NCBI GenBank assembly: GCA_035317825.1
Contig: DATHGB010000005.1
Coordinates: 1 to 32,736 of the forward strand
Direction of reading: 5' to 3'
Source: Candidatus Saccharimonadales bacterium
GTDB lineage: Bacteria > Patescibacteriota > Saccharimonadia > Saccharimonadales > Saccharimonadaceae
Length of the DNA: 32,736 nucleotides
The notes under the pieces were generated by a model. That model was given only the letters and a program-made list of their open reading frames with translations. It ran no database searches and was not told the origin of the DNA. Positions 3,683-5,231 of the stretch are shown here, piece after piece. The position numbers and the translations under genes are program-made. Positions within the stretch are counted from its first letter, which is position 1; each line of letters starts with the position of its first letter.

Positions 3683-3691
3683 TGGTATAAT
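3683..3691 (+). promoter_or_regulatory. Extended -10 promoter of the hisS leader
   Basis: TG-G-TATAAT (3683-3691), an extended -10 element. The ATG of the leader peptide at 3698 begins after six bases, so the transcript should start with this AUG or within 1-2 nt of it. No clear -35 hexamer is seen, as is common for extended -10 promoters. Confidence 0.75.
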
Positions 3692-3697
3692 TACCCT

Positions 3698-3751
3698 ATG
3701 ATTTATCAATCTATCCATCACTCGCATCTGCTGCCGGAACGTGTCGGATAG
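3698..3751 (+). CDS. Histidine-rich leader peptide of hisS (17 aa)
   Basis: A short ORF reading MIYQSIHHSHLLPERVG and ending TAG at 3749. Codons 7, 8 and 10 are His (CAT CAC TCG CAT, 3716-3727), in the transcript that leads into histidyl-tRNA synthetase. It starts at the predicted transcript 5' end (leaderless). The terminator at 3772-3800 follows 20 nt after the stop, and hisS follows that. CCGGAACGTG (3734-3743), just after the His codons, can pair with CACGTTTTCGG (3782-3792) in the terminator loop and 3' arm. By analogy with his, trp and leu leader peptides, a ribosome stalled at His codons for lack of charged tRNA-His would free 3734-3743 to form the antiterminator. A ribosome reaching the stop codon would cover it and let the terminator form. 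Translation of the ORF is not proven. Confidence 0.72.
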   Translation: MIYQSIHHSHLLPERVG

Positions 3752-3771
3752 ATTTCTTTTTACTAAAAAAT

Positions 3772-3800
3772 AACGCCGATTCACGTTTTCGGCGTTTTTT
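3772..3800 (+). terminator. Attenuator terminator before hisS
   Basis: Stem AACGCCGA (3772-3779) / TCGGCGTT (3789-3796), loop 3780-3788, with the T-tract running to 3800. It lies between the leader peptide and hisS, and I see no second promoter between it and the hisS Shine-Dalgarno. It therefore appears to be conditional rather than a gene end. Its loop and 3' arm also pair with 3734-3743. Confidence 0.85.
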
Positions 3801-3833
3801 GATCCATTTATTATTTATTTTAGGAGAATTACT

Positions 3834-5231
3834 ATGTCCAGATCTAAAAGCTCACGCTTGCGTTTACCGGATAAAAATGCAACAATAACCCCTATGAGTA
3901 GTTTGTCTTCGCAACCCTACAAAGGTACGCGTGATTCTTACCCCGAAGATATGCGTGTTCGAAACTATATTTTTGCGCAGTGGCGTCGAACCGTTAAATC
4001 GTTTGGATACGAAGAATACGGCACACCTCTTTTAGAGCCGCTTGAACTTTATGCCGCTAAATCCGGTCAAGAACTCGTTAGCGAGCAAACCTACACGTTT
4101 ACCGACCGCGGTGGCCGCGTTGTAGCCATCCGTCCCGAACTAACGCCGAGCGTCAGCCGCATGGTAGCTGCTAGACGCCAGGAAATGGCATACCCAGCCC
4201 GTTTATATAACATTAGCAACTACATGCGCTACGAACGCCCTCAGCGCGGTCGTGAACGCGAATTCTGGCAGATGAATGTCGATATTTTTGGCGTGGAAGG
4301 CGCTCTGCCGGAATCTGAAGTAATCGGCATAGGCTATACGCTGCTTAAAAACCTTGGCGCGACTGACGAGATGTTCATCATCAAAATTAATAACCGAAAA
4401 GTTATTAATTATATGATGGCACAGTATCTTGGCCTTGATACTATTCAGGCGCAGTTAATGATCAAGCTATTTGACCGCAAGAATAAGATTGCAGCTGAGG
4501 ACTTTCGTGATCAGGCAATCGAGATTTTTGGCGAACAAGCCGCCCCGGAAGGTCTAAAAAAGATTTCCGCACTTCTGTCCGCTAAAAGCATGGGCGAATT
4601 ACCTGAGGATATTCGTGAAAGCGGAGCTGTAAAGGAAGTCCAAGAACTATTTACGCTGTTAGAACGTGCCGGTGTTAAAAATGCTATTTTTGACATTACC
4701 CTAATGCGAGGCCTCGACTACTATACGGGTACTGTATTTGAATTTTTCGACACGCACCCGGACAATAACCGTGCGATGTATGGCGGTGGCCGCTACGACG
4801 GACTTGTCGGTTTGTTTGGCGCCGAACCTATTTCGGCAGTTGGTATGGCACCCGGCCTTACGATGACCGAATTATTTTTACAGACGCACAAACTCCTGCC
4901 CGACCTTCCTTCTACGACCGAGGTTTATATTGTTGTACTTGGCGACGCTCTAAAAGGTGCTATGAAATTAGCGAGCGATCTACGTGAAGAAGGCGTGAAT
5001 ACCGAACTTGATATCACTGGTCGTAAACTCGACAAGCAGCTTAAGACAGCGGTGAAAAAACACATTCCATTCATTATTTTTGTTGGTGATGACGAGCTGC
5101 AAAGCGAGATCTATCCATTCAAGGACACCGCTTCAAGTGAAGAGCAAAAACTGAGCTTCGAACGTATTGTCAGTAGTGTCAAAGATCGCCGCCGCAAGCA
5201 TGACGACGATTTAGACGATTTGTTCGAGTAG
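3834..5231 (+). CDS. hisS: Histidyl-tRNA synthetase
   Basis: A 465-residue class II aminoacyl-tRNA synthetase that charges tRNA-His. After an unusual basic N-terminal extension of about 20 residues comes the normal beginning QPYKGTRDSYPED. Class II motif 2 is YMRYERPQRGREREFWQMNVDIFG. The histidine-binding HisA motif is RGLDYYTGTVFEF, followed by YGGGRYDGL and motif 3 in GMAPGLTM. The last 100 residues form the anticodon-binding domain. The Shine-Dalgarno AGGAGAA (3822-3828) fixes the ATG at 3834. An ATG at 3894 would remove the extension but has no ribosome site. Expression probably depends on the attenuator upstream. The stop codon is 26 nt before trigger factor, whose own promoter overlaps the end of hisS. 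Confidence 0.96.
   Translation: MSRSKSSRLRLPDKNATITPMSSLSSQPYKGTRDSYPEDMRVRNYIFAQWRRTVKSFGYEEYGTPLLEPLELYAAKSGQELVSEQTYTFTDRGGRVVAIRPELTPSVSRMVAARRQEMAYPARLYNISNYMRYERPQRGREREFWQMNVDIFGVEGALPESEVIGIGYTLLKNLGATDEMFIIKINNRKVINYMMAQYLGLDTIQAQLMIKLFDRKNKIAAEDFRDQAIEIFGEQAAPEGLKKISALLSAKSMGELPEDIRESGAVKEVQELFTLLERAGVKNAIFDITLMRGLDYYTGTVFEFFDTHPDNNRAMYGGGRYDGLVGLFGAEPISAVGMAPGLTMTELFLQTHKLLPDLPSTTEVYIVVLGDALKGAMKLASDLREEGVNTELDITGRKLDKQLKTAVKKHIPFIIFVGDDELQSEIYPFKDTASSEEQKLSFERIVSSVKDRRRKHDDDLDDLFE

Follow-up and report, generated by a model that had tools for sequence, protein, structure and literature searches.

How do Saccharibacteria, which are ultrasmall and mostly dependent on other bacteria for amino acids, sense the supply of these compounds? 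Little is known about this. In the window analysed here, i.e. the whole stretch of 32,736 nt from a Candidatus Saccharimonadales bacterium (contig DATHGB010000005.1), the question can be put to a single gene: upstream of hisS, a short ORF with His codons is followed by an intrinsic terminator. Leader-peptide attenuation is a textbook mechanism, and we consider it very probable that this region is a ribosome-mediated transcription attenuator sensing charged tRNA-His and controlling hisS. At the level of sequence, the case is carried by the anatomy of the element, its conservation, its covariation and its mutually exclusive folds.

Anatomy of the hisS upstream region

All features described here lie on the plus strand, between positions 3683 and 5231. 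An extended -10 (TGG-TATAAT, 3683-3691) marks P1, the putative promoter of the leader transcript. A 6-nt spacer (TACCCT, 3692-3697) separates it from the ATG of the leader peptide ORF (MIYQSIHHSHLLPERVG; 3698-3751, ATG...TAG, 17 codons), which has homologous ORFs in 59 genomes. The sensor codons (3716-3727) are His7 (3716-3718), His8 (3719-3721) and, after Ser9, His10 (3725-3727). In the MFE structure, region 1 (AATCTATCC, 3708-3716) is the 5' arm of a protector (1:2) hairpin, whose 3' arm (GGATAGATT, 3746-3754) overlaps the leader stop codon and the end of region 2. The latter (GCCGGAACGTGTCGG, 3733-3747) is the antiterminator arm and is antisense to the whole terminator hairpin. An intrinsic terminator folds between the leader and the structural gene (3772-3800; stem 3772-3779/3789-3796, loop 3780-3788, U run to 3800), its stem beginning 20 nt past the leader stop. 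It is followed by the Shine-Dalgarno (SD) sequence AGGAG (3822-3826) of the long hisS start (ATG 3834). From this ATG, hisS (3834-5231) encodes a histidyl-tRNA synthetase of 465 aa that matches NCBIfam TIGR00442 above the cut-off (E 9.8e-103). The closest relatives of this hisS are mostly labelled Candidatus Saccharibacteria. A sequence-only reading of this DNA had reported the extended -10, the six bases, the 17-codon His ORF, the terminator at 20 nt from the leader stop and the hisS ribosome site; all of them were found in place.

No recognisable -35 was found for P1 by inspection of the window sequence; P1 is therefore recognised there by its extended -10 and its conservation. Among 52 relatives, 13 have a perfect TTGACA -35 at 16-18 nt spacing. 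The -10 directly precedes the leader ATG, which has no SD sequence: the distance is 6 nt in the window, and of the 46 relatives whose -10 was scored, 36 have 6 or 7 nt. Hence, the AUG would be at or adjoining the 5' end of the transcript in nearly all elements, and in the window transcription would begin at the ATG or no more than 1-2 nt from it, making the leader ORF leaderless. This geometry, proposed from the window alone, is therefore kept in relatives. Leaderless starts look ordinary in this genome, judging from the frequency of TATAAT followed by ATG after 4 to 8 nt (120 vs 68 in the control). Among 30 such TATAAT-ATG places checked in the genome, a short His ORF with a terminator was found only at the hisS leader. 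A second identical TATAATTACCCTATG, on contig 21 of the same genome, is by eye a leaderless phosphoglycerate-mutase-like gene and not another leader.

A putative second promoter, P2 (3858-3896), lies within the first 20 codons of annotated hisS: TTGCGT (3858-3863), a 17-nt spacer ending in TGC, AACAAT (3881-3886) and, after 7 nt, a leaderless ATG (3894). This ATG is the canonical HisRS start (MSSLSSQPYKGTRD), where the HisRS of relatives begin. Many relatives, with or without a leader, have TTGCAA-17-(TG)-nAnnAT-ATG at the same position, and this motif is plainly noncoding in those without an upstream ORF. In the window and its close relatives, P2 is at the same time coding, its translation (LRL..KNATITP) extending the protein at the N-terminus. 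P2 probably gives a leaderless hisS transcript that escapes the attenuator and encodes 445 aa, in addition to the attenuated transcript, which is SD-led and encodes 465 aa. It would dilute regulation by the attenuator. Since the parts of the attenuator are under clear selection, a start downstream of the terminator would represent a basal supply completed by an inducible supplement, rather than a refutation of the attenuator.

Distribution of the element and genes downstream

Among the hisS upstream regions of 30 relatives, seven, window included, carry the same element; their leaders are clearly related but diverged, and one comes from another family. A first covariance model was built from these seven examples and searched in 101 whole genomes. 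It was limited to the protector hairpin and the terminator because the antiterminator test had to stay unbiased. Matches were obtained in 27 genomes, 20 of them beyond the starting seven. The true extra matches sit upstream of hisS, of his biosynthesis genes or, for one, at a contig end. One extra match was false on inspection. With a second model, the inspected total reached 59 genomes from 13 families of one order (Candidatus Saccharibacteria). Covarying pairs and His codons, sought across Saccharibacteria along the lines of the sequence-only reading, were both found, and the element itself is present in at least 59 genomes.

No true match was found outside the order in a phylum-wide sample of 380 genomes, nor any match outside the order at E <= 0.001 in a class sample of 393 genomes. 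Weak phylum-wide matches (L073-L081, E 0.007-0.05) have no His leader and were taken as chance, as was L058. The element is absent from most sampled relatives, with matches at E <= 0.1 in 72 of 393 genomes of the order.

In 47 of the 59 genomes, hisS follows the element in the same orientation, at most about 2.9 kb away (in one of them as a distant HisS/HisZ-like protein). The remaining elements precede hisG/hisD (L049, L057, L071), hydrolase or unassigned genes, or run off the contig end. Besides hisS, the elements thus precede genes encoding HisG (PF01634), HisI (PF01502) and HisD (PF00815). For instance, in G091 a HisS/HisZ-like protein is followed by hisG, hisH, hisA, hisF (by eye) and hisI. 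In L045, L046, L049, L052, L057, L067 and L071, the histidine pathway is partial (hisG, fused or not to a HisE-like domain, hisI, hisD) and often adjoins hisS.

Several leaders precede genes of other kinds. An AstE/AspA-like hydrolase accompanied by a conserved unassigned Cys-containing protein (about 220-250 aa) is found in L036, L048, L055, L061, L087, L089 and L100, and is a candidate histidine-releasing pair. Peptidase M15 proteins (VanX/VanY-like; D,D-dipeptidase-like) belong to the His-leader operon in L041, L065, L083, L090, L095 and L098, and an M20 peptidase is under a His leader in L069. Furthermore, L054, L056 and L065 encode a protein with a DapF/PhzF-like GGEFCGNA motif, which could be an epimerase acting on histidine; Pfam returned only a GNAT domain for the L054 protein and nothing for that of L065, the DapF-like motif being unmatched. 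Judging from the leader alone, these hydrolases, peptidases and GGEFCGNA proteins would serve histidine salvage.

Five genomes (L055, L057, L097, L099, L100) have no separate leader: there, a TrpR-related protein of the YerC/YecD type (PF01371; TIGR02531 above cut-off for L057) ends in the same motif, ..HHSHLSPARAE, followed by the stop codon. The same arm and terminator come after these fused sensors, with hisG/hisD or hydrolase genes further downstream. YerC has been proposed to be HisR, the histidine repressor of Firmicutes (PMC9413887). We give about even chances to a broader reading, namely an order-wide histidine regulon of Saccharibacteria built on one type of leaderless attenuator. It would include hisS, hisG/hisI/hisD (in one genome also hisH/A/F) and uncharacterised hydrolases that would cleave host-derived peptides or conjugates to free histidine; for some lineages, the sensor codons would be part of the C-terminus of a TrpR/YerC (HisR-like) protein, so that synthesis of the regulator would itself be the histidine measurement.

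Conservation, pairing and ribosome position

The leader ORF is enriched in His codons, with 3 His among 17 codons in the window and 142 among 1003 residues in 58 leaders. When leaders are aligned on their last His, His occupies positions -3, -2 and 0 in 36, 44 and 58 of the 58 leaders, respectively, position 0 being the anchor by construction and only -3 and -2 being independent. In 44 of 58 leaders, precisely 24 nt separate the last His codon from the stop. His codons are thus kept in the relatives that carry the element. The residues at +1 and +2 after the last His ([ILM][LSQ], before Pro) are almost invariant, which RNA pairing does not account for. Nine leaders have only one His codon. Pairing of their 3' half is stronger (-14.2 vs -10.8, p 0.002), a difference given little weight because six of the nine share one diverged leader type (..HxQPE.VL..), probably by common descent. 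An unusually strong antiterminator 3' half was noticed in the single-His leaders L051, L053, L071, L089, L093 and L101 (..SHMQPESVLR, then stop), in which the required ribosome position may differ.

The pairing of CCGGAACGTG (3734-3743) with CACGTTTTCGG (3782-3792), one T being bulged, was recovered by folding. Its extent had been understated: it also takes in G3733-C3793 and, with four more pairs that reach the terminator 5' arm, TCGG (3744-3747) with CCGA (3776-3779), i.e. 15 pairs in total. Once freed, region 2 folds with 3776-3779 and 3782-3793, at -20.2 kcal/mol in the window vs -11.9 for the terminator. The fold of the 105-nt leader is 3.5 sd more stable than those of its shuffled versions. 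For 27 elements, the duplexes between each arm and its own terminator sum to -706.9 kcal/mol vs a mean of -527.6 (sd 17.8) after swapping. In a separate count, position-wise pairs on positions 4-9 amount to 213 of 318 vs 173.6 (sd 6.5); none of 20000 swaps was as good in either test, both being without phylogeny correction. The terminator helix is paired in 100% of cells among 25 aligned relatives. In the same relatives, seven of the eight pairs of the protector hairpin have changed on both sides, for instance CTATCC/GGATAG, CTAACC/GGTTAG and TTACCC/GGGTAG, and 82% of cells are paired; this hairpin is weak or absent in some relatives.

Folding states were computed with only the RNA beyond the ribosome left free, the footprint being 13 nt from the first base of the A-site codon. 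This value is that of E. coli ribosomes. All 57 elements form the terminator when the ribosome is at the stop codon; when it is held at the upstream His codons, all 57 form the antiterminator and none the terminator. The two structures are thus mutually exclusive in the computed folds, and set by ribosome position. When arms were swapped among elements, the antiterminator folded in 30.8 of 57 (maximum 39), and with shuffled arms in 2.75. Together with the swap and pair tests, these folds indicate that the alternative pairing is retained in relatives. In all 49 leaders with several His codons, a ribosome stalled with the first His codon in its A site blocks the terminator; using the same footprint, a stall at the sole His would leave it unblocked in four of the nine single-His leaders. 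The sequence-only reading had placed the stall at codons 7-10. In the window, a stall at His7 or His8 is predicted to trigger readthrough, but the terminator still forms when the ribosome stalls only at His10. The working sensor codons should therefore be His7 and His8, a slightly narrower set. Without translation, the antiterminator is the preferred equilibrium fold in 43 of 57 relatives, not in the window; hence, default-off in those relatives would depend on co-transcriptional kinetics.

We infer the following for transcript starts, stalling, order of pairing and response to histidine. Transcription from P1 would begin at the leader AUG, and a 70S ribosome would initiate on this leaderless end. 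With ample His-tRNA, the ribosome would reach the stop codon and cover region 2, the terminator would form and hisS would be off. When His-tRNA is short, the ribosome would halt at His7/His8, opening the region 1 hairpin and freeing region 2. The latter would pair first with the terminator loop and then invade both stem arms, so that RNA polymerase would continue into hisS. In an untranslated transcript, such as read-through from the upstream gene, in which the AUG is not at the 5' end and has no SD sequence, the region 1 hairpin would stay and transcription would terminate. P2 would supply basal hisS regardless of the switch.

Alternative explanations and known attenuators

Conservation could bear on the peptide instead of an RNA switch: the leader would encode a small peptide (HxH[ILM][LSQ]P motif) that has a function of its own or arrests the ribosome, and its transcript would simply end at an ordinary terminator. 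The great constancy of H-[ILM]-[LSQ]-P (+1, +2), not fully explained by RNA pairing, points this way. However, residues past the Pro vary together with the terminator loop, the leader arm is antisense to each genome's own terminator, the position of the element is tied to hisS and his genes, and five leaders are tails of a larger protein; we regard such a peptide as highly improbable. It is also very unlikely that hisS is expressed only from P2, the P1 leader and its terminator being a remnant or an insulation from the upstream gene. P2 is indeed conserved in the family whether or not the leader is present, and many relatives have a hisS without any leader, but His codons, compensatory pairs and geometry would not be maintained in 13 families if the leader were a remnant. 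Moreover, an in-frame start with an SD sequence (3834) is retained in the window, where it could serve only transcripts from P1.

Since hisS T-boxes are common in Firmicutes (PMC2965389), the switch might also be a T-box or another riboswitch binding tRNA or a metabolite directly. The T-box covariance model had no match in the window or in 12 related loci. In the leader region, all Rfam families stayed below their gathering scores, and even the matches at E <= 10 included no T-box and no proteobacterial His leader. Furthermore, about 100 nt, half of them coding, are too small for a T-box, and this explanation appears extremely unlikely.

The preferred reading, a ribosome-mediated attenuator, has known relatives. 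The E. coli pheST attenuator (pheM leader) likewise acts by leader-peptide attenuation on an aminoacyl-tRNA synthetase gene, with Phe codons, an SD-led leader and a different RNA. Like the proteobacterial his operon attenuator (hisL), the Saccharibacteria element combines His codons in a short ORF, a protector, an antiterminator and an intrinsic terminator, ribosome position being the signal (PMC9413887). Unlike hisL, it is leaderless and has scattered His codons (HHxH) in place of a long run; its region 2 is complementary to the loop and the two arms of the terminator, whereas that of hisL concerns the 5' arm alone; and in the window it would control hisS and has no Rfam match. His attenuators have also been predicted for his operons of Firmicutes (PMC9413887). 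In Sinorhizobium meliloti, the RNA starts with the ATG of trpL, a leader peptide that is therefore leaderless too (PMC7298713), although it concerns tryptophan and trpE(G) in an alphaproteobacterium.

The sequence-only reading knew of no leader-peptide attenuator of a synthetase gene in CPR bacteria. For CPR/Patescibacteria this stands, no earlier report of this type having been found in the open-access literature searched. However, a His leader peptide with a terminator has been predicted before hisS-family genes, hisS* and hisZ, in Bacillus (PMC2965389). These leaders belong to a different phylum and are described as having a stretch of His codons. In the same open-access literature, no description was found of an arm antisense to the whole hairpin, of a leaderless start combined with a synthetase gene, or of fusion to a TrpR-like regulator.

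If this reading is true, a conserved histidine switch read by the ribosome implies coupled transcription and translation in the radiation to which Saccharibacteria belong, and leaderless starts can drive attenuation. The leader arm antisense to an entire terminator hairpin offers a clean variant for studies of attenuator kinetics. Moreover, the element would mark the genes that the cell treats as its histidine response, hence providing functional leads for unnamed hydrolases.
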